This document shows, piece after piece, positions 13,171 through 62,728 of a stretch of 64,000 nucleotides of DNA (position 1 is the stretch's first letter; each line of letters opens with the position of its first letter). This DNA is from Mactra quadrangularis (lineage: Eukaryota > Mollusca > Bivalvia > Venerida > Mactridae). The notes under the pieces are model-generated. The model had not been told where the DNA came from. It saw only the letters and a program-made list of their open reading frames with translations, and did not search any database. Position numbers and translations under genes: made by a program. The stretch is taken from NCBI GenBank assembly GCA_025267735.1, contig CM046303.1, positions 46,141,380-46,205,379 of the forward strand, given 5' to 3'.

Positions 13171-13180
13171 TTGTAAAAAA

Positions 13181-13861
13181 ATAATTCTGATCTAGCTATC
13201 CTCCCATAAATGGGCCCTTCACTAGATTGCTCAGAATTATGGGCTCAGCCTCTACACATAAATCCGATCTAGCTATCCTCCCATAAAATGGGCCCTTCAC
13301 TAGATTGCTCAGAAGTATGTGTTTATCTGTCAAAAATAATTCTGATCTAGCTATCCTCCCATAAATGGGTCCTTCACTAGATTGCTCAGAATTATGGGCT
13401 CAGCCTCAACACATAAATCCGATCTAGTTATCCTCCCAAAAAAGGGCCCTTCACTAGATTGCTCAGATGTATGTGTTATCTGTCAAAAATAATTCTGATC
13501 TAGCTATCCTCCCATAAATGGGTCCTTCACTAGATTGCTCAGAATTATGGGCTAAGCCTCTACACATAAATCCGATCTAGCTATCCTCCCATAAAATGGG
13601 CCCTTCACTAGATTGCTCAGAAGTATGTGTTTATCTGCCAAAAATAATTCTGATCTAGCTATCCTCCCATAAATGGGTCCTTCACTAGATTGCTCAGAAT
13701 TATGGGCTCAGCCTCTACACATAAATCCGATCTAGCTATCCTCCCATAAAATGGGCCCTTCACTAGATTGCTCAGAATTATGTGTTTTTGTAAAAAATAA
13801 TTCCGATCCAGCTATCCCCCCATAAAATGGGTCCTTTACTGGATTGCTCAGAATTATTGAC
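13181..13861. repeat. 154-bp satellite with hairpin half-units
   Basis: ATAATTCTGATCTAGCTATC recurs at 13181, 13336, 13489 and 13644, with a diverged copy at 13797, giving periods of 153-155 bp. Each unit holds two related half-units of about 77 bp. Within the first half-unit ATAATTCTGA pairs with TCAGAATTAT and CTAG with CTAG, giving a hairpin around CTCCCATAAATGGGCCC. The array may be an amplified MITE. Confidence 0.9.
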
Positions 13862-19650: not shown

Positions 19651-21456
19651 TGATAAAGACAAATATGTTAAGAAATACATATAGCACAGACATAAAACAA
19701 TGTTGAAGTATTGTGTTTGATACTATCGCTAAAACAATAATGAAATAATTTGACAAAAATATTGTAATATACTCTAATAAAGAATAACATTGAGTTTTTA
19801 CTGTGTAATTATCAACCCAATATTACAACGTTGGTATACGTGCGTTGGGATTGAGATTGTCCCAGGTTTGAATCAACTTATTTTCCTAGAGAACAAATAA
19901 AAGTATTCTACGAGTGCTACACTCTACCACGGTGTAGATTGTTACTTTGAAGCTCGTTCATACATGATGGGATATTCGATCCTTAAAGCCCCATTACTAA
20001 ATTGAACGCTGATACTTGTCAAGTATCATGTTTTTGCTTAAAACGTATGCAAACATTAAATCAATATATAAAACGCATCCCAGGCACAAAAATCTCAAGT
20101 ATTTTCTCCAGAATTTATACTATTTTTTAACTGACTTACGAATTTTTTTCGTAAGATTTTTGTGTGAAAATGACCACTAATCGTTTCTTTGAACATAAAC
20201 ATAGATTGCATAACTTCGTAAGCAATTAATAAATTTTACAATATCAAATTACAAAACTTATAAAAATGTGCAGTAAGGTATGAGAATAAAAACGAAATAT
20301 AAATTACCTTGAGCAGTATAATAAAAAAATAGTAATATACAAATATCCCTTGTTACACACTCATTTTTTACAAATTTCAAATTCAAAATGACGGGTTTTG
20401 TTATGGTCGTTTTTGATTGGATGTCAGGTTGGTGTTAATTTGAGTAATAATAGCCAGAGGTTAAAGTTTAAAGGTGACATATATAGAAAGGTCAAAGTTC
20501 ATAATCTAGGATGTACAGCTGTATATTGACTAGACTACTGATCGTCGGGTGAATGCAATACTTCTCTCACTTTAATTTTCTAATTGATTCAGGAGGCTTA
20601 AAATCTTTATTATCTATTCTTTTTATATCTTAAACTTGAAGCAAAATGCTAATAATACCATATCGTATTCAAACCTAGTCGCGTTTTTACTTTTAAATTT
20701 AGACCGTGGAATTTAAAAAAATGTAAAAATCCCTAATTACGGGCATTGATGCATTCATCCAAAGATATTATAATTTTAAGAAGAAAACTTCCCGAAGTGT
20801 TCAATGTAACCCGAAAAAAATTAATTGGCCGTGCAAGAATCGAACCCATGACATTTCGAGTTGAAAGCCGACACACTATCACGTCGCCGTAAAATAGCTT
20901 GAAGGCACAAGTGTCATATTATACCTCAGCTCTAATGAGTAGCATTGTAACATTGACGAGTACATTTTGGAAATTTCAGGGGGGGGTCCGGGCCCCTGAC
21001 CCCCCCATCGGCTAGATTTGCCTATGGACATAGTAATCCGCACTTGTAAATCCAATTAAAATAACGCAAAAACAGCCATGAAAGTGTAGTAAGTACTCAC
21101 TCTTCACTCATTGTCACCCAGAATTTCATAGCTCAATTTCTAACATGTCCACTATAGTCCAATTATTTCGACCTGTCCATATGAATACATGACACATTGA
21201 CTAGTTGTACAAATGTACGACGTATATTAAAATTCACAGAACGGGATGCTTACTCGTACATATAATTCTAACATGACTGGGAAATCCCTATGTCGTATTA
21301 TTCCTTATCACTTTGCAATGAATTCAACAAATTGTTTAGGTAGATTAATTAAGACTAAACACTAACAAAGAAATATTAGAAATAGTCTAAACTCACTGAA
21401 TTCCCCTTATAAAAACACAGGCGTGGTTATAAAATAATCCGTAGCATTGGAATCAC
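19651..21456. other. Unrecognised DNA with one tRNA-like relic
   Basis: At 20828-20890 (minus strand) GGCGACGTGATAGTGTGTC followed by ATGGGTTCGATTCTTG looks like another SINE head. A C/G-run (GGGGGGGTCCGGGCCCC, about 20980-21005) resembles the end of a CAGGGGC-type hAT MITE. Otherwise I see nothing up to the foldback element. Confidence 0.4.
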
Positions 21457-21474
21457 ATGTATGTGAAGACAGCA

Positions 21475-21740
21475 GTAACAGCAGTACAGCAGTACAGCAG
21501 TACAGCCCTACTGCCAGAATTTTCGGCAGTACAGCAGTACAGCCCTACTGCCAGCAGTACAGCCCTACTGCCAGACTTTTCGGCAGTACAGCAGTACAGC
21601 CTTACTGCTAGAATTTTTCGGCAGTACAGCAGTAAAGCCTTACTGCTTGAGTTTTCGGCAGTACAGCATTACTGTTAGAATTTTCGGCAGTAAAACCTTA
21701 CTGTTAGAATTTTCGGCAGTAGGGCAGTACTGTTGCAGAC
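21475..21740. repeat. ACTGC minisatellite, left arm
   Basis: Iterations of GCAGTACAGCAGTACAGC, CCTACTGCCAGAATTTTCG and variants, with the repeat cores ACTGC and CAGTA. The right-arm counterpart at 29040-29435 is longer. Such iterated termini in an inverted repeat are typical of foldback-type elements. Confidence 0.85.
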
Positions 21741-21915
21741 TGCTGTATCATTCTAGCAAATTATTCTTTATTTTGCCTCTCAGAATTCTCAGATCATAAA
21801 AGTTATATGTTTGAATTCTCTATAAGGTCCAAAATTAAAAAAAAGAACATATAGAGCCAATCTAGGATGTGGGATATGTTAAAATCAATACTATGAAATA
21901 TGAAAATAAAAAAAG

Positions 21916-22124
21916 TTTGTTTGTTTTAATTGGGTTTAACGTCGCATTCAACACACATTTAGGTTATACAATGTATATGCGACATCCAGCTCTTCCTACT
22001 ATAATACCCTACCACGAGACTGACAACTCATGTATAGGGTATGACATCGTACCGCGACCGGACTCGAACCCGTGATCTCCGGATTCGAAGTCAGACATGC
22101 TAACCAATACGCCACTGCTGCAGC
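21916..22124 (-). mobile_element. SINE D in the left arm
   Basis: The minus-strand tRNA head reads GCAGCAGTGGCGTATTGGTT with a B box CACGGGTTCGAGTCCGG. The 3' end is GCGACGTTAAACCCAATTAA. An inverted copy occupies the matching place in the right arm (28661-28862). Confidence 0.85.
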
Positions 22125-22199
22125 TAAATAAAGAAGTACATGTAGAATGAAGGAACACATTTAGTGATCCGAAGACTTGGATAATTATATACATGTTTT

Positions 22200-25120
22200 T
22201 TCTTGTTAGGTTTATATCCATGTTTTATTTACAAAAAATGTTCTACACGATCACAAGTTACTGCTGGTTCTTGTGACACTATGACCATATGAAATATGCC
22301 ATTTACTTCCCATTTTCGGAAAGCTGAATGAACAAGCTTTCTTTTGGTATATAATACTGCTACAAGTTTGTGTAAGTATTTAACTCTGGATGAGTTATAT
22401 AACGAACAGTTTTTCATTTTTTTTAATTCTCTACACAAAGAACTGATTCAAACGTACCGAACGACCTATCTCTGATGTCAATATTTGCAACGTATTTGTA
22501 ATAATATCAACGGCATAACATGGATATGCAATGCATAAAAAACCATGAAGAATGAAAACATACGGCTACATTGAGTGATCGAAGTGCTTCAAGAAATATA
22601 TTCAATATTCTTGTTTGGTATGTACATTTTTGACAAAAAAATGTTTTACGCTACCGCAAGTTACTGCTGGTTCTTGCGACAATATGACCAAAACATATGC
22701 CATAAAATACCCATTTTCTGAAAGCTTAATGAACAAGCTTTTATTTGGTATAAAATACTGCTACAAGTTCGTGTTAGTAATTTTCTCTGGATGAGTTATA
22801 TAACGAACAGTTTTTCAATCTTTATTTGATTTCTCTACACAGAGAACTGTTTCAAATGTACAGAAGGACCTATCTCTGATGGTAATATTTGCAAAGTATT
22901 TGTAACAATATCAACGGCATAAAGAGTATATGCAGTGTATGAAAATAACCAAAAAAAGATGAAAAATACGGCTACATTAAGTGTTCGAAGTGCTTCAAGA
23001 AATATATTCAATATTCTTGTTTGGTAGGTACTTTTTTACAAAAAATGTCCTACGCTACCGCAAGTTACTGCTGGTTCTTGCGACAATATGACCGAAACAT
23101 ATGCCATAAATTACACATATTCGTAAAGTAAAATTAACATGCTTTCATTTGGTATATAATACTGCTACAAGTTCGTGTTAGTATTTAACTATGGATGAGT
23201 TATATAACGAACAGTTTTTCAATTTTTATTTGAATTCTCTACACAGAGAACTGATTTATACGTTCAGAAGAACCTATCTCTGATCGCAATATTTGCAACG
23301 TAGTTGTAACAATATCAACGGCAATAACATGTTTATGCAATGTATAAAAATTACCATGAAGTATGAAAAATACGGCTTCATTGAGTGATCGAAGTGCTTT
23401 AAGAAATATATTCAATATTCTTGTTTGGTATGTACTTTTTTACAAAAAATGCCCTACGCTACCGCAAGTTACTGCTGATTCTTGCGACAATATGATCAAA
23501 ACATACGCCATAAAATACCCATTTTCTGAAAGCTGAATGAACAAGCTTTCATTTGGTATATAATACTGCTACTAGTTCTTCTTGTTTTTTCTGACTCTAT
23601 ATTAGTTTTATAAACAACATTTTTTTTCATTTGAATTTCTACACGAAGGTCCATATTGTACATACATATAGGGCCTATTTTTGATGCCAATGTTTTCCAA
23701 CAATGTTTAAAAAAGCTATGACGTAACATTTATCTAAATAAGAATGAAGAATGAAAGAACTCAGCTACAAACAACATTGTAAGTACTTGACTGTTTAAAT
23801 ATATATATACATATTATACATTCGTTTTGGGATGCTAAAATTTAAGTGATTTTTTAAAAAACGTCCCTTGCAATCAGAGGTTACTGCTGATACTTGTGAC
23901 GTTATGAATGAAAAGTATGCTTTGTAGTGCCCATTTTTGTAAAGATGAATAAACAAGCTTTCATTAGGTATATAATTCTGCTACAGGCTCATTTAAGTAT
24001 TTTACGCTGGATGAGTTTTATTACGAACAGTTTTTCAATTTTCGTTTGAACTCTCAACACAGAGTACTTAGTTAAACGTACAGATAGCGCCTGTTTATGA
24101 TGTCAATATTTGCATCGAATATGTTTAAAAAATCTAGGGTTTTACATGTATGTATTAAAAAGGCGTAAAAGACTACGGCTAAAGATAATAATCTATAATA
24201 AAACTTTTAAAAAATCTTGTAGATTTAGTATCCCTGTGTTTTTCCAAAAAGTTTTACAAGTTACTGCTAGTTCTTGTGACGCTAAAACTATGCTTTTTAT
24301 CACCCGTTTTCGTGAAGCTGAATGAGCAAGTTTTCATTTGGTATATAATACTTCTACCAGATCGTGGCAAAATTTCACACTGAACGAGTTTTATTAGGAA
24401 TATGCTCTTCAATTTTTATCCGAACCCTACTCGGCGTTGGATTAAATGTACAGATAGGACTTATCTTAAATTTCAAATTTGCTGCAAATATGGATATAGA
24501 ACAATGGTAATTCATATTAAACATTGACAATTACATTAACATTCATTGCTTTAATACTGGCAGAAATAAGAGCTCTGAGGGTTGGTTATGTTCACGTACT
24601 TCGTTCAAACTTTAACTTCGCTATTGTAAGTTACTGCTGTTTTTTGTGATCCAATGACTGGATAAACATACTATTCAATACACATATTCACAAAGCTAAA
24701 GGATCAAGCTTTAATTTGGTATATAGTACTGCTTTATGTTGTCGATAGTTTTCAATATCGGATATATTTAATTTAATACATATCTTTCAAGTTTAGAATG
24801 TTTACTCGGGATTCAAATTAAATGTGCAGATTTAAAGACTTCTCTCAATATTTGTTACAGATCTGCATAAAAATCAATGATAATTTATATCAAAATAAAG
24901 AGAAAACATGGACGATTACATCAGCACGAATTGTTTTATTAGTGGTCGAAAAAAAGAGCGTAAGCGTTGGTAAAGTTTACGTACTTCGTGCAAATTTTAA
25001 TACCATTTTACATGTATATTGTAAGTTACTGCTGTTTTTGGTGTTGTTGTGACTGGTAAATATACCATTTAATATACATTTTCAAAAAGTCGAATGGACA
25101 AGCTTTAATTTTATACATGA
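22200..25120. repeat. ~400-bp tandem units, left arm
   Basis: The marker GTTACTGCTGGTTCTTG or a variant starts at 22257, 22660, 23064, 23468, 23880, 24260, 24630 and 25025, giving spacings of 403, 404, 404, 412, 380, 370 and 395 bp. Other shared blocks are GAACAAGCTTTCATTTGGTA, GATGAGTTATATAACGAACA and TTCAAGAAATATATTCAATA. Outer units are alike and units toward the centre are diverged. Confidence 0.9.
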
Positions 25121-28100
25121 TACATTGTTATGTTGGTTTTTATAAACTGTGTAAGTTTATCTTATGACATTTCTTTCAGCGTGGTAATTAATCTTGATAT
25201 TTTCTCCGCATTTAAGACCAACTTCCGGGTAAAGATAGATAGCGGAAACAACTTGATTTTTCATTTTTACATATTCGTTACCACCTGTTACATAAATACG
25301 ATATGGTTTTTATTCAAACAAACTTGATATTTATGAAAGCATATTATAAAATACGTTAAATGAGCTAGTTTTGTTACAAAAGTCCTTCACATAATAATTT
25401 GTTGTCTGCGTAAAAAAAATGTTTTCGCGAAAACAATTTGGTTCCGCTGTCTTTCTATACCCGGAAGTTGATCTAAAATACAAGTTAATTTTATAACATG
25501 AACCATGATTATTCTGTTTTTATTTGCATTATTTTCTTACACTTTACTTATCAAATATAACATGACTTATCATACGTGCAAGATAAGATTTACGAAAGGG
25601 AATGATTTTGTTCAAAATCAAACGTTTAACATCTAACAGATATTCGGTACGCAAGTTTAATCTGCGGCTAAATATTTCATTCGGCGGAGAAAATATCAAG
25701 AATGATAACCACGATGAAATTATTGAAAAATTTGTCATAAGAAAAACTTATTCAGTGTATAAAATCTAACATGACAGTTGAGATGAATAATATACCATAC
25801 TAAAGCTTGTTCATTCGGCTTTTTGATAATGTATGTTAAATAGTATATTTATTGTCCATAATAACACTAAAACAGCAGTAACTCGCAATATAAAGCGATG
25901 TTAAATTTTGTACGAAATACGTGAACATAATCAACGCTTAAGCTCTTACTTCTACCAGTATTATGTAATTCATGTTGATATAATCGTGCATGTTTTATCT
26001 TTAGTTCGATATAAATAATTCTTGTCTTTTGATGCAGATCTGTAACAAATGTTGACATTGAAGATGGGCCTTATATACGCACATTTATTTCCAACTCCAG
26101 ATGAATAATTCGAATGGAAATCGAAAAATGTCATTAATAAAACATATCCGAAGTGGAAAACTATCTTGAACATAAAGCAGTATTATATACCAAATGAAAG
26201 CTTGTTCATTCAGCTTTGTGAATATGTATATTAAATGGAACACAGACCCGGTCTTCGGATAAAAAATAACAGCAGTAACTTACTATAGCAAAGTAAAATT
26301 TTGAGCGAAGTGAAATTTTTAGCGAAGTATATGAACATAACCAATTCATTAGAGCACTTATTTCAACCATTATAGAAAAAAACTTTCTTATGATTATGAA
26401 ATCGTATTTTTTCCCGTTATTTTGATATAAATTTTCATTGGTTTTTATCCATATTTGCAACAAATATTGACATAGAAAAAAAGTCCTACCTACACATTAA
26501 TCCAAACCAAAGTAGAGAATTCTAATGAAAATTGAACAAATGTTCGCAATAAAACTAGTTCAGTGTGAAAACTCACTCGAACTGGTTGTAGTATTATATA
26601 CCAATTGAAAGCTTGTTCATTCAGCTTTACGACAATAGGTATTAAATGGCATAGTTTTCGTTTTTAGCGTCACAAGAACCAGCAGTAACTTGTAATCACG
26701 TTGAATAATTTTCTGAAAAAAAAACACCTTGGATTCGCGTAGAAATTCGAATGAACAAAAATGTTGTTTATAAAACTAATATGGTGTAAAAAACAAACGA
26801 GAAGTAGTAGTAGTGTTTTATACCAAATGAAAGCTTGTTCATTTAGCTTTTAAAATAGGGGGAATTTTATGGCATATGTATTGGTCATATTGTCGAAAGA
26901 GCCAGCAGTAACTTGCGGTATCGTAGGACATTGTTTTGGTAAAAAGTACAAACCAAACAAGAATATTGAATATATTTCTTGAAGCACTTCGATCAATAAA
27001 TGTAGCCGTATTTTTCATTCTTTATGGTCATTTTCATAAATTGCATATGCATGTTATGCCGTTGATATTGTTACAAATACGTTACAAATATTGCCATCAG
27101 AGATAGGTCGTTCTGTACGTTTGAATCAGTTCTCTGTGTAGAGAATTCAAATAAAAATTGAAAATTGTTCGTTATATAACTCGTCCAGAGTTAAATACTT
27201 ACACGAACTTGTAGCAGTATTATATATCAAATGAAAGCTTGTTCATTCAGCTTTCAGAAAATGTGTAATTTATGGCATATGTTGTGGTCATAATGTCGCA
27301 AGAACCAGCAGTAACTTGCGGTAGCGCAGGACATTTTTTTTGTAAAAAAGTACCTACCAAACTAGAATATTGAATATATTTCTTGAAGCACTTCGATCGC
27401 TCAATGTAGCCGTATTTTTCATTATTAATGGTTATTTTATACACTGCATATGCATGTAATGCCGTTGATATTGTTACAAATACGTTACAAATATTGCCAT
27501 CAGAGATAGGTCCTTCTGTACGTTTAAATTAGTTCTCTGTGTAGAGAAATGAAATAAAAATTGAAAATTGTTCGTTATATAACTCGTCCAGAGTTAAATA
27601 CTTACACTAACTTGTAGCAGTATTATATACCAAATGAAAGCTCGTTCATTCAGCTTTCAGAAAATGTGTATTTTATGGCATATGTTGTGGTCATAATGTC
27701 GCAAGAACCAGCAGTAACTTGCGGTAGTGCAAGACATTTTGTTTTAAAAAAAGGTACCAACCAAACAAAAATATTTAGTACATTTCTTGAAGCACTTCGA
27801 TCACTTAATAAAGCCGTAATTTTTATTCTTTATGGTTAGTTTTAAACATTGCATAAACATGTTATTGCCGTTGATATTGTTACATCTACGTTGCAAATAT
27901 TGCCATCAGAAATAGGTCCTTCTGTACGATTGAATCAGTTTTCTGTGTAGAGAATTCAAATAGAAATTAAAAAACTGTTCGTTATATAACTCGTCCAGAG
28001 TTAAATACTTACACGAACTTGTAGCAGTATTATATACCAAATGAAAGCTTGTTCATTCAGCTTTCAGAAAACGTGTATTTTATGGCATATGTTTTGGTCA

Positions 28101-28660
28101 TAATGTCGCAAGAACCAGCAGTAACTTGCGGTAGTGCAGGACATTTTTTTTTGTAAAAAAGGTACCTACCAAACAAAACATATTTAGTATATTTCTTGAA
28201 GTACTTCGATCACTAAATAAAGCCGTATTTTTTATTCTTTATGGTTATTTGTAAACATTGCATAAACATGCTTTTGCCGTTGATATTGTTACAACTACGT
28301 TGCAAATATTGCCATCAGAGATAGGTCCTTTTGTACGTTTGAAGCAGTTCTCTGTGTAGAGAATTAAAAAAAATTGAAAAACTGTTCGTTATATAACTCA
28401 TCCAGAGTTAAATACTTACTCGAACTTGTAGCAGTATTATATACCAAAAGAAAGCTTGTTCATTTAGCTTTCCGAAAATGGGAAGTAAATGGAATATTTC
28501 ATGGTCATAGTGTCACAAGAACCAGCAGTAACTTGTGATCGTGTAGAACATTTTTTTTGTAAATAAAACATAGATATAAACCTAACTAGAAAACATGTAT
28601 ATAATTATCCAAGTCCTCGGATCACTCAATGTGTTCCTTCATTCTACTTCTTTATTTAGC

Positions 28661-28862
28661 TGCAGCAGTGGCGTAGCATGTCTGACTTCGAATCCGGAGA
28701 TCACGGGTTCGAGTCCGGTCGCGGTACGATGTCATACCCTATACATGAGTTGTCAGTCTCGTGGTAGGGTATTATAGTAGGAAGAGCTGGATGTCGTATA
28801 TACATTGTATAACCTAAATGTGAGTTGAATGCGACGTTAAACCCAATTAAAACAAACAAACT
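28661..28862 (+). mobile_element. SINE D in the right arm
   Basis: The tRNA-like head GCAGCAGTGGCGTAGCATG is followed by a B box ACGGGTTCGAGTCCGG. The body reads CATGAGTTGTCAGTCTCG and the 3' end GCGACGTTAAACCCAATTAA. It is the mirror copy of 21916-22124. Confidence 0.85.
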
Positions 28863-29039
28863 TTTTTTTATTTTCATATTTCATAGTATTGATTTTAACA
28901 TATCCCACATCCTAGATTGGCTCTATATGTTCTTTTTTTTAATTTTGGACCTTATAGAGAATTCAAACATATAACTTTTATGATCTGAGAATTCTGAGAG
29001 GCAAAATAAAAAATGATTTGCTAGAATGATACAGCAGTC

Positions 29040-29435
29040 TGCAACAGTACTGCCCTACTGCCGAAAATTCTAACAGTAAGGTTTTACTGCCGAAAATTCT
29101 AACAGTAATGCTGTACTGCCGAAAACTCAAGCAGTAAGGCTTTACTGCTGTACTGCCGAAAAATTCTAGCAGTAAGGCTGTACTGCCGAAAAGTCTGGCA
29201 GTATGGCTGTACTGCTGTACTGCCTAAAATTCTGACAGTAAGGCTCTACTGCTGTACTGCCAAAAATTCTGGCAGTAGGGCTGTACTGCTGTACTGCCGA
29301 AAATTCTGGCAGTAGGGCTGTACTGCTGTACTGCCGAAAATTCTGGCAGTAGGGCTGTACTGCTGGCAGTAGGGCTGTACTGCTGTACTGCCGAAAATTC
29401 TGGCAGTAGGGCTGTACTGCTGTACTGCTGTTACT
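29040..29435. repeat. ACTGC minisatellite, right arm
   Basis: Iterated TACTGCCGAAAATTCTGGC and GGGCTGTACTGCTGTACTGC. It is longer than the left-arm array by several units, showing independent length change since the arms became identical. Confidence 0.85.
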
Positions 29436-29738
29436 GCTGTCTTCACATACATTGGAATCACGTGTTTTGAAATCATTATAACCAATTAAACTCTGGGTTG
29501 TGTAATTTCAACACAGTGACTATTTAACGTGTAAGTTTGTGGATACTCATGCCTTTTTCCCAACAACACGGCATGGTTACCTTTCCTTGGCTTGAGGACC
29601 ATGTGCATGCCATTTGCTTTAGCAGTTATAACTTACGAGGATATGGAAGCTGGGGAGCATGTTATTTTACAAAATACAAGGCAAATTTACAGAGGGAAAC
29701 ATAATAATTGTATAAATTTCAGGATATATATCACATAT

Positions 29739-29986: not shown

Positions 29987-30275
29987 AACCCGGGTCGGTA
30001 GCGCAGTTGGTAGCGCGCCTGGATTTCGAATCTAGTCCAGAAGTGGGTATGGGTTTGAATCCCATCCGGGGAGGTTGTAACTTTCCATGAAAATTTGACA
30101 ATAATGTCACTTTCTTCAATTAATAAGGTATATGGAGAATTGTCCGGCCTTAGGAAAGGGTAGGTCAGTTCTGGTGATAGACAATGGTCCCAGAAAGCTA
30201 GGTTATGTGCGCTGGACGCCGTAAAATAATCTAATAAATTGTGTTGACACGGTGTTAAACCCAGTGTACAAAAAC
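29987..30275 (+). mobile_element. SINE B, plus strand
   Basis: The tRNA head is CCCGGGTCGGTAGCGCAGTT with a B box GGGTTTGAATCCCATCC. The body reads GGCCTTAGGAAAGGGTAGGT and the 3' part GTGTTGACACGGTGTTAAAC. It is nearly full length. The exact target duplication is not clear. Confidence 0.88.
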
Positions 30276-37295: not shown

Positions 37296-39139
37296 TCATC
37301 CATTGGCATTTGCAACCCCGGATGTAGAGCTTGCACCATCATCCGATTCACTTTTCTCTTCAATCAGAAACTTTTTGTTTATTGCAATTTTAACACAACT
37401 GTCAATGAGTCTAGGGTTTGGAAGTGGCACCCGAGCTTTTTCAGCTTCACCGCTTTCAGTCTTAAATATAATCATTTCACATGTAAGTGAAGTGTCCTCA
37501 TTTTCTCCACCAACAATGTAGATGTTGCCTCTATACTGTACAGCTCCATAGTGAATTCTACGAAAAGCCTTCACTGTCCCCACTAGAGAGCATGCATGGG
37601 ATCCATTCCCATAAGGATTGTATTCTACAATTTTACCACTGAAGAAAATTATGAAAACTCTTTGTCCAGATGTAACAGCTTTGGTTAACTTTGAAATAAT
37701 GGAAAGACTTGTTATTTTCGTACATTCATTTGTCTTTGTATCAAAACATTGAACCACGCCAGTATCAGTTTTATCATTTTTCTCACCTCCAAAAAGAAGA
37801 ACTTTTTCACCAGTGACAGCTGACGAGAATGAACTGACAGGTATTGGTAACTGAGCAACATCTTCCCAGTTATCCTCACACATGTCATATTTCTCAATAC
37901 TTGAAAGCATCCTGTTACCTTCAGGTAGACGATGGTCATAACCACCTATAACAAACAAGCTGTTTGTAAGAGCAACCATAACATGTCGTCTGCGACCTTG
38001 GCATAAGGGCTTTCCAATTTTCCATTTGTTCTTGTCTGCTCGATATTTAAGAAATGTTTGGGTGCGACTGCCTCCACCGGTGAGATATATATCATTACCA
38101 TAAGTGCAAGTAGCAAATTCGATACCTGGATCAAATGGCAATGATTCAAGCTTGTACCATTTCTCCTGCGCAAAACTGTATGAAAGAACGTCATTACAAC
38201 GTTTATAAGGTGGATGCATTGATACACATCCACCCATTACAACAAGAACGTCTTCAAATTGACTACATTGTCTAAAGTGAGTCACAGATGAGTTAGCTTC
38301 TTGTCGTCTTGCAGGAAGTAGCTTGTACTGTATTGCTGTATCTATGTTCTGCTGAGCAAGACGATCATCAAGTACCGGAGAGCATGGACTACTTTTTAGT
38401 GTAGCAAGCCTTTCAGCAGAGATGTGTCCAAGTCTTATATGAGCCAATATTTGTCCAAGCTTTTGTTTACGTATATCAGGGTCTCCGCGACGAGCCCATG
38501 CTAACACAGCATCAAGGACAGCTTCTTCTGCTGGCACATCCAGGTCGTCATCTTTAATGATTTGTATAAGTTCATATGCATCAAGTCTCATGAAAGCATC
38601 AAGTGGGGACAGTTCAACAAAGTTTTTTAAGATTTTCTCAATTGCTTTAACTCGTACTTTTTCCCAGCTATGAATCAGAGCTAGTCTCCAAATGTCTATA
38701 CAGTTTTCCATGTCAATAAACGGTTCTAAAACTACTTCACACTTTTCACATAATGATTTGATTTGTAGTAAGGACGAAGCTTTTAATAATTTAATGACAT
38801 TTTCTTGAGTAACTACTTCTTTTCCTGTGTAAATATATTCCATAACTAATTCAAAAGTCACAGCTTCCATTTCTTTAAAATGAATTTCCCCACTAACACT
38901 TTCACGCATACCTGATGAAAACATGGCATCAAAGTATGGAGACGTGGCAAAAAGGACAGCTTTGTGACAATTGAACACTCGGTTCTCTACAGTTATTTTG
39001 ATATCTGAATGTGCACCGGTGATCCATAGTTTCTCTAGACCTTGTGATAAATGATTCAGACGTGGTGTGATTGTTGATGACGCCGTTGATGACGTAATAC
39101 TCTGGGCATCGTCCACGTCTTCCTCTTCTTCTTCAGAAT
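37296..39139 (-). CDS. BTB-BACK-Kelch protein, exon 2 with stop
   Basis: Kelch-like adaptor. Family members recruit substrates to Cullin-3 ubiquitin ligases or bind actin; which applies here is unknown. After an acidic, Ser/Thr-rich N-terminus, a BTB domain (residues about 48-155) shows the hallmark HKAVLFATSPYFDAMFSSGM. A BACK domain (about 160-265) follows. Then come kelch blades (about 305-610) with GG doublets in VVMGG, LTGGG, VIGGY, LFGGE and IVGGE; the blade near FIIFFSGK lacks the doublet. The open frame extends upstream of 39139, but that part is intron: TGTATTTACAG|ATTCTG is an acceptor whose phase joins exon 1 at 52373. The product is 628 residues, a usual length. The stop is TGA at 37296-37298. 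I cannot name the vertebrate orthologue. Confidence 0.96.
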
Positions 39140-39487
39140 CTGTAAATACACAAAAGAGCATTTGATACACAAAAGAGCTTTAAATACACAAAAAGAACAT
39201 TAAATATACAGCAGAGTATTAAAGCTATGAGCACAGAACCTATACGATAATCTACAATTAACATTTTAATCCGTCGTTCTCGAGTAATGAAAACCAAATC
39301 TTGTTGCGCAAAACACTAGACAACTAATGACTCAAACCAAAGTTGCTAAATGCTTAAGCTGACGATAGGTATGTCAGAGAACACTACTCATGCACACAAG
39401 TAAATGCCTAACGATAATATACAAGTTCAGTTTTCTTCTGATTGCAGCTCCAGTATCAAAGAATATTCGTGAGAAATGAACAACATA

Positions 39488-60864: not shown

Positions 60865-61794
60865 TTATAGTACAGTATGAGGTAATTTGTACTCTTTTTG
60901 AAGACAAGAACATGTTACAATACTTTTAAACGCTGCTCTAAACTTTCTACATCTAAATCCATACACAATCCAGTTCACACAAGAATTTACAAAACCAAAA
61001 CTAACTGTCATGTCCTTTACCATGTATAATGTCAAAGACTCTCCAGGAATAAATGTAGTAATTCCAAATGGTGCCCAGAATACTATAAATAATCCAGTTA
61101 TTATCAACATAATACGTGTATGTCTGATTTCTTTCCTTAATTTATGCTTGGTCAGAGGTGATGACGGCATAGTGTTCAATTTATTTACAGCAATTCTTAC
61201 AATTATTATAAATAAAATGGTGTTTACACATAAAGCTATGATAAAAACTGATAATACTATCCGTTTGTACATTGGTAACAGTAAATGACTAGAGGTGCAG
61301 TAGAAAGGCTCCGGTACGTCCGCATGAAGTCCGAACAGAGGTAGGCACCCGATAACTATTCCAGTAATCCACGTGGCTATTATAATTAAATAAATCCTTT
61401 TTACTGAAAAACGGGAATAATGGCGAAATGGTCCAACAAGAGCACTGAATCTTTCTAATGATAAGATGAATAAATTAATCACTGATAATCCTACAAATGT
61501 GTACAATAAACAGTAATACCATAGACATAGCTCAACCGAAGATGACGCCGCATCCGACACAGTCAAGTACAAATCTAGCGGCAATACAACCAGCCCTATG
61601 AACAAATCCGAGACCGCTAAGTTTCCAATTAGAATATAAGCACGTACTCGAAGTAGTTTTGGAAATCTCACTAAAGAAATTATTATCAACAAATTTCCAA
61701 AGAATGTAGGCAAACTGAAAATCACGTTTATTCCAATAAAATACCACTCAGAATTTAAACGTATGGTATGCACTGTGCTATTCGACGTCTCCAT
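60865..61794 (-). CDS. Rhodopsin-family (class A) GPCR, intronless
   Basis: Seven-transmembrane receptor of the plasma membrane that would signal through G proteins; ligand unknown. The 309-residue product starts at ATG 61794 in a good context (AACCATGG). The open frame runs 14 codons further upstream, but without an ATG. Landmarks: glycosylation site NST at residue 5; GN at 33-34 in TM1; LAVSD with Asp63 in TM2; Cys90 at the top of TM3, with Cys166 as likely disulfide partner; ERF at 114-116 replacing DRY; Trp142 in TM4; FWAPF at 239-243 replacing CWxP in TM6; NWIVY at 274-278 replacing NPxxY. C-terminal Cys295 and Cys297 could be palmitoylated. Overall style recalls adenosine- or amine-receptor relatives, but I cannot place it. 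A 36-bp minisatellite lies about 0.5 kb upstream. Confidence 0.94.
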   Translation of the reverse strand: METSNSTVHTIRLNSEWYFIGINVIFSLPTFFGNLLIIISLVRFPKLLRVRAYILIGNLAVSDLFIGLVVLPLDLYLTVSDAASSSVELCLWYYCLLYTFVGLSVINLFILSLERFSALVGPFRHYSRFSVKRIYLIIIATWITGIVIGCLPLFGLHADVPEPFYCTSSHLLLPMYKRIVLSVFIIALCVNTILFIIIVRIAVNKLNTMPSSPLTKHKLRKEIRHTRIMLIITGLFIVFWAPFGITTFIPGESLTLYMVKDMTVSFGFVNSCVNWIVYGFRCRKFRAAFKSIVTCSCLQKEYKLPHTVL

Positions 61795-62320
61795 GGTTAC
61801 TGAGAATTTTAAGATTTCATCTTCAAAATAATTCAATCGCTGAACAATTTCATCATAGAAAACACTTCAGATAAATAATTATACACAATCATACTTATAT
61901 AACCTTTTTTATAATATATTCCGTCCTATTTTACGGTGTAATTATTTTCTGATTTTTTTACGCAATGTCCACAATATTTATTGTTTACATTCACGTACCG
62001 GTAAGTTCAAGGAGGCGTTTACGTCATGAATGTAAAGTAGCATAATTTAAGATATTTACGCATAAATTTTACAACGGTTAAAATTTCCTAGGGAAATCCG
62101 CACTCTTCAAACTGCATTAGAGCCAAGATGATACTAAAACAAGATACTCGTTAATAACTATTCAAGTAGGTAAGTTCATAATGTAAATACATGTACAATG
62201 TATTAATATTCATAATTTGTAATTGTATAAACTATGAACGGTGACTAGTGTGTCAACTAGTACAAATTTACTACATAAGTTATATGGGCAGACTCAGTAA
62301 TTTTCCAGGGAGTAAGAGGA
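61795..62320. other. GPCR 5' flank
   Basis: AT-rich region upstream of the receptor start. No clear TATA box or initiator can be chosen with confidence. Confidence 0.4.
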
Positions 62321-62728
62321 AGGGCAGACCTAGCATTTGTTTACGAGGAACATGGAAGGACAGACCTAGCATTTGTTTACGAGGTACATGGAAGGACAGA
62401 CCTAGCATTTGTTTACGAGGTACATGGAAGGGTAGACCTAGCATTTGTTTACGAGGTACATGGAAGGGCAGACTTAGCATGTGTTTTCGATGTACATGGA
62501 AGGGCAGACCTAGCATTTGTTTACGAGGTACATGGAAGGGCAGACCTAGCATTTGTTTACGAGGTACATGGAAGGGCAGACCTAGCATTTGTTTACGAGG
62601 TACATGGAAGGGCAGACCTAGCATTTGTTTTTGAGGTACATGGAAGGGCAGACCTAGCATTTGTTTACGAGGTACATGGAAGGGCAGACCTAGCATTTGT
62701 TTACGAGGTACATGGAAGGGCAGACCTA
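62321..62728. repeat. 36-bp minisatellite, open on both strands
   Basis: About eleven copies of a 36-bp unit (GGCAGACCTAGCATTTGTTT, then ACGAGGTACATGGAAG), almost identical. The plus strand reads RPSICLRGTWKG 12-mers and the minus strand LGLPFHVPRKQM 12-mers. The plus frame is broken by a TGA in one unit (near 62632). The frames follow from a period divisible by three. Confidence 0.95.

Follow-up and report, generated by a model that had tools for sequence, protein, structure and literature searches.

The window considered here, a stretch of 64,000 nucleotides from contig CM046303.1 of the bivalve Mactra quadrangularis, contains a foldback element of 7,996 bp (21457..29452) amongst genes and repeats of other kinds. 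A long kelch/BTB frame on the minus strand (37296-39179) specifies a kelch-like protein that is 97% identical to a protein of Mactra antiquata, and a frame with a rhodopsin-like seven-transmembrane domain is found at 60865-61866. Tandem repeats are present at 13177-13857 (a 155-bp repeat array of 4.4 copies) and at 62318-62728, where there are eleven 36-bp repeats with two frames open, one of them with HGRADLAFVYEV-like repeats. Just outside the element, at 29996-30068, lies a tRNA-like sequence that reaches 36.9 bits with the Rfam tRNA model and receives no call from ARAGORN. When the element was compared with the remainder of the window by blastn, no match was found at E 1e-3.

The element is bordered by TGGAATCAC, an exact direct repeat with two occurrences in the whole window, at 21448-21456 and 29453-29461 (left and right target-site duplications, plus strand), and inside this duplication its termini are perfectly inverted over the first 42 bp, as the original prediction had it. 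Each arm, read from the outside inwards, consists of a tip with GCAGTA/TACTGC short repeats, a single-copy stretch with a SINE-like insert, and eight units of ~400 bp. On the left, tandem repeats and motif counts place the tip and a GCAGTA-rich short-repeat domain at 21457..21745 (plus strand, right boundary approximate), with the ten-bp core CAGCAGTAAC at 21470..21479 (plus). The insert follows at 21910..22125 (minus strand, recognised by its match to the insert of the right arm), and then the array at 22228..25209 (plus), each of whose units contains GTTACTGCTG, the core reversed relative to the left tip, in one unit with one mismatch. The right arm mirrors this arrangement, with eight units at 25700..28563 (minus; tandem repeats, unit comparison and motif counts), one of them shortened, the insert at 28658..28866 (plus; match between arms), and the short-repeat domain and tip at 29030..29452 (minus, left boundary approximate), the terminal core lying at 29430..29439 (minus). 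We take the inserts to be SINE-like from their tRNA-like appearance; Rfam gave no match at the left one (21910..22125).

Pairing between the arms spans about 3.75 kb per arm, and identity falls inwards from about 98.5% in the outer part to 88.5% in the middle and 73% in the inner part. Inwards of about 25210-25256 and its paired segment at about 25633-25690 it is only ~50-60%, and for this reason the hardly pairing centre (25210..25690, from the arm alignment and change points) is about 0.4-0.5 kb in size. A central loop had indeed been foreseen, although at ~190 nt it was made too small; likewise the arms are collinear overall, as was claimed, except at R5 of the right arm, a unit shortened to 223 nt. 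Identity is 83-93% among units L1-L3 and R1-R4 and 68-74% between these and L4, while the inner units match their opposite numbers best (L6-R6 75%, L7-R7 72%, L8-R8 76%). Long inverted arms built of tandem repeats are the structure by which foldback-type transposons are defined, and a long terminal inverted repeat (TIR), often with subterminal tandem repeats, is, as here, also a feature of the Mutator-like (MULE) type (PMC5225508). The observation of a foldback element with a target duplication is confirmed.

The element is far from solitary. Its 28-bp terminus, with up to 2 mismatches allowed, has 586 matches in the 979,026,929-bp assembly (285 forward, 301 reverse), and the same pattern read backwards, used as a control, has none. 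Among the matches listed (100 of the 586 termini, all exact, on C1-C12), 80 could be paired by eye into 40 convergent pairs within 20 kb, of which 32 span 7.3-10.6 kb, 7 span 11.3-18.3 kb and one spans 394 bp. Were almost every terminus paired, there would be up to about 290 copies, an estimated and very rough 2.6 Mb. An intact 8-kb copy had been thought notable in itself, a view that 586 matching termini do not support. A search of viral contigs with a 23-bp terminus gave no match. At C17:30876189-30878233 the family's short repeats follow one another for about 2 kb and may form a small satellite that has developed out of the terminal domain.

For closer comparison we took the best 20 of 40 scored hits besides the window's own copy, a sample that leans to close relatives because the best-scoring hits were chosen. 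Both ends were present in 16 of these loci, giving 17 full copies with that of the window; left out were L010, whose right end is truncated, L013 and L016, whose partner end lies beyond the stretch examined, and L028, in which one end was seen. The full copies are 5,861-10,241 bp long with 6-12 units per arm. The SINE-like insert occupies both arms in 16 of the 17 (L009 is without the right one); the left match is just a 57-bp piece in L019 and is partial in some other copies. Perfect target duplications flank 16 of the 17 copies; in 10 they measure 9 bp and in the other 6 they measure 8 bp. The remaining copy, L021, has a 9-bp duplication with one mismatch. The other copies stop at exactly the same tips, so that two of the checks proposed originally, on further duplications and on the ends, came out in favour of the prediction. 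The family inserts at fixed tips with an 8-9-bp stagger, and the full copies carry target duplications at independent insertions, as expected of foldback transposons. Chance is excluded, since elsewhere in the genome the same ends recur and are again flanked by matching target duplications. Long-read foldback artefacts have been described (PMC12870357), and inverted arms could in principle arise in this way from reads or assembly; however, the arms differ from each other by 1.5 to 27%, and copies inserted elsewhere, with different flanks, share these tips and are bordered by matching duplications. The chance that the arms are such an artefact is vanishingly small, and on the arm divergence and the duplications at other sites we regard it as ruled out. 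The family was not met in our literature searches, which took in oyster satellite papers as far as their text was accessible and had Repbase outside their range. It is a new family of a known, foldback kind, and the window's copy is one of many.

Conservation within the arms is concentrated in a short motif. The core, CAGCAGTAAC, forms positions 14-23 of the terminus and recurs in all 16 units of the window's copy, reversed relative to the near tip, 15 times exactly and once with one mismatch. It sits in the best-conserved 12-mer of the unit, and none of 10,000 column shuffles gave 12 consecutive columns in which 15 or more of the 16 units agree. The strand bias of CAGCAGTA follows the same plan, with forward and reverse counts of 8/0 in the outer left domain, 0/7 in the left units, 8/0 in the right units and 0/10 in the outer right domain. 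Since the core had served to delimit the units, a second search was made with the core masked; across the 17 copies it gave 320 hits, 297 of them covering the core, which was exact in 265. A further 19 core-covering units read GTTACT-GCT, probably as a result of gap placement. Over 294 gap-free rows the core block was exact in a fraction of 0.90, the next separate block in 0.69 and the median block in 0.30. The rows of this 17-copy set are not independent, because the copies are related, and core conservation is more fairly judged from the 16 units of a single copy.

These cores are candidate extra or relic transposase-binding sites, by analogy with Galileo of Drosophila, in which extra transposase-binding sites have been demonstrated within the arm tandem repeats (PMC3688188). 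It is also possible, though we consider it distinctly the less probable course, that neither the units nor their core take part in transposition and that the core has been kept, for example, by recent homogenisation of the units or by chance descent from the terminus. Several results agree with such a neutral origin. The 394-bp relative, which has its own 9-bp duplication (CGATTGCCA) and consists of the short-repeat domain only, has moved without units, and arm units are therefore dispensable for movement. Outside the core the terminus and the unit are weakly alike, with a score that 38 of 1000 shuffles reached, and other blocks of the unit are conserved too, the next of them at the 0.69 given above. 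When the terminus was shuffled, 125 of 20,000 trials still gave a 10-mer in common with the conserved block, as frequently as this because the terminus is CAG-rich. On the other hand, inner units L6-L8 and R6-R8 are mostly only 55-76% alike and yet share an invariant 10-column run, again seen in none of 10,000 column shuffles, and the core block stands far above the median block in exactness.

Where the units came from is indicated by a related subfamily, L056-L060, which shares the family tips (tip ...AACGGCAG; one end was examined per member). The outer domain of L060 scores 80 against the unit, the maximum in 500 shuffles being 33, and this clear relationship points to that domain as the likely origin of the units. 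As a source of the units the element's own outer domain was tried and rejected, its scores being reached by 87/1000 and 31/1000 shuffles on the two strands. L060 also contains, inside the related element, a frame of 170 aa (L060:110-619), for which no Pfam or NCBIfam match and no homologue in a protein search was found. Residues 64-169 of this frame are open, in whole or in part, at C19:1803876-1804193, C9:42260911-42261225 and C2:10754565-10754750, while residues 1-58 correspond to repeat sequence found genome-wide. The partial relatives point to a coding copy and may be taken as a lead; ATGTATGTGAAGACAGC is the end sequence by which such a copy would be tied to the family. Many inverted pairs about 4 kb apart match residues 1-58, which suggests a further foldback subfamily.

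The copies are young and their layout is old. The central 900 bp differs among the 17 copies by a mean of 0.98% (range 0.22-2.34%), so little that the family must have spread recently. The inner arms of the window's copy, by comparison, are about 27% apart, and the internal layout thus long predates the copies now present. Inter-arm divergence in the window's copy rises stepwise, from 1.45% up to position 22437 to 11.5% up to 23578 and 27% up to 25209. A two-step fit (BIC 2764.5) is better than the best smooth curve tried (2804.2), and three- and four-step fits are better still (2757.4 and 2745.7). Identity declines inwards in other copies also, with inner alignments that are poor where the arms are unequal (L009, L017, L024). 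In the 720-bp outer domain, compared in 16 copies (L009 was omitted, having no anchor on the right), the two arms differ by 2.5% within copies, and between copies left-left comparisons give 1.4%, right-right 1.6% and left-right 2.6%. The closeness of left to left and right to right implies that an ancestor of these copies already had matched outer arms, and that left and right have evolved separately since then. Matching of the arms within each copy, as a rule, is rejected by this comparison; a single copy, L011, shows it. All 17 diagnostic columns of the right outer arm of L011, 7 of which belong to one indel, show the left state, and beyond about 2.6 kb the right arm of this copy is right-type with the inner arm unchanged. 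This mixed arm indicates that the outer part of one arm can overwrite the other.

As originally stated, the element has no transposase frame, the longest stop-to-stop frame overlapping it being 113 aa, and what had been predicted as a foldback-type element with true target duplications and without a transposase gene is borne out in a mollusc host. There are 83 stop-to-stop frames of at least 40 aa overlapping the element, and the 10 that were scanned gave weak matches only, all below the Pfam cut-offs. In the 20 sampled loci no stop-to-stop frame exceeds 160 aa. Four larger copies (13.8-18.3 kb) whose inner stretches were inspected contain unrelated insertions or longer unit arrays and no frame above 114 aa, and a transposase inside these four is rejected. 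MULE domains occur at 43 places in the assembly. Checked by eye against the termini listed (100 of 586), none of the 43 lies between paired ends, and the nearest, at C7:45342681, is 5.9 kb outside an end pair. The flanks of 12 of these places (1.5 kb on both sides at six, 2.8 kb on one side at six others) contain no terminus and no GCAGTA enrichment, a range within which a longer element could be missed. Among the places examined no copy with these ends was found to encode a MULE transposase, and of the FB/MULE-like label given at first the foldback part holds, while the MULE assignment is likely but unproven.

The duplications fit a MULE, for which 8-11 bp, typically 9 bp, are reported (PMC6446971), a range that takes in all 17 full copies, and most foldbacks seem to be Mutator elements (PMC4079207). 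A transposase of another superfamily, of the P, hAT or Merlin type, might move the family instead, in which case the MULE label would be wrong. We think this improbable. Merlin elements make 8-9-bp duplications, and the 8-bp duplications in 6 of the 17 copies, like the search of 43 MULE places and 12 flanks without a transposase bearing these ends, would fit a superfamily other than MULE. However, 9-bp duplications are not typical of P and hAT transposases, and 10 of the 17 copies have perfect ones. The foldback form also arises in the P superfamily, as Galileo shows (PMC3573991, PMC3688188), but mixed 8- and 9-bp duplications are the product of the active MULE Muta1 (PMC5225508).

The closest known systems are compared here by their published descriptions. 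Tetris, a foldback of Drosophila virilis, is similarly non-autonomous, with long inverted arms made of an outer domain and a ~220-bp repeat array; its outer domain and repeat share a 37-bp stretch at about 80%, a likeness by description, it makes duplications of 8-10 bp, and Mutator has been proposed for it (PMC4079207). Its arms are shorter, at up to 1,735 bp (PMC4079207) compared with about 3.75 kb in our family. Tm1, a Mutator/Foldback element of root-knot nematodes, has the same composite arms, tandem motifs and MITE-like members, and mostly 9-bp (8-10 bp) duplications; unlike the present family it includes one group that encodes a MULE-like transposase, no such copy having been found here, and its inverted repeat is flanked on the outside by asymmetric end motifs of 7 bp (PMC3169594). 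Muta1 of Aedes aegypti resembles our family in its 8- or 9-bp duplications, its terminus with subterminal tandem repeats and its hundreds of non-autonomous derivatives, and was labelled a type 2 Foldback TE by its authors, but it has a 145-bp TIR and a coding copy, and the accessible text mentions no arrays of ~400-bp units (PMC5225508). The arms of Galileo are also long and internally repetitive (PMC3688188, PMC3573991); it differs in belonging to the P superfamily, with 7-bp duplications where ours are 8 or 9 bp, and in arms of up to about 1.26 kb (PMC3573991, PMC3688188). Rehavkus, including Rehavkus-1_TC, likewise compared by description, makes 9-bp duplications as here, but is reported from arthropods and annelids only and encodes a transposase with a PHD finger (PMC6446971, PMC10218199). 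The arms of the present family are longer than those of these foldbacks, and the family has a well-defined core motif and arm strata that can be measured.

On balance we consider it probable that this is a recently amplified, non-autonomous foldback-type family moved in trans by a MULE. A Mutator-like transposase made elsewhere in the genome, which has 43 places with a MULE domain, would recognise the terminal CAGCAGTAAC/GCAGTA repeats, pair the ends, cut at the ATGTATGTG tips and insert the element with the 8-9-bp stagger. The ~400-bp units, with the core in opposite orientation, may serve as extra binding sites or be relics of them, as the Galileo analogy suggests, unnecessary for mobility in either case. 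The outer arms would at times be re-matched by copying of one onto the other, thereby producing the steps in divergence. A bolder version, which we put forward tentatively and regard as doubtful, is that the arms are selected arrays of transposase-binding sites, whose units descend from the subterminal domain and whose arrays grow by duplication and are re-matched from the tip inwards. If this were true, the one site in each unit would be oriented like that of the opposite end, the left arm thereby offering many right-end-like sites, and the element would be a transposon with readable strata.

A 2013 paper described the binding-site role of the tandem repeats in Foldback and Phantom as untested at that time (PMC3688188). 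The present family is a sharp candidate for such a role of arm repeats, with a core that is exact in 265 of 297 units whose remaining sequence decays. The many palindromes of 6-10 kb, nearly identical to one another and all from the genome of one animal, also provide a natural set in which the persistence of palindromes and exchange between their arms may be studied.
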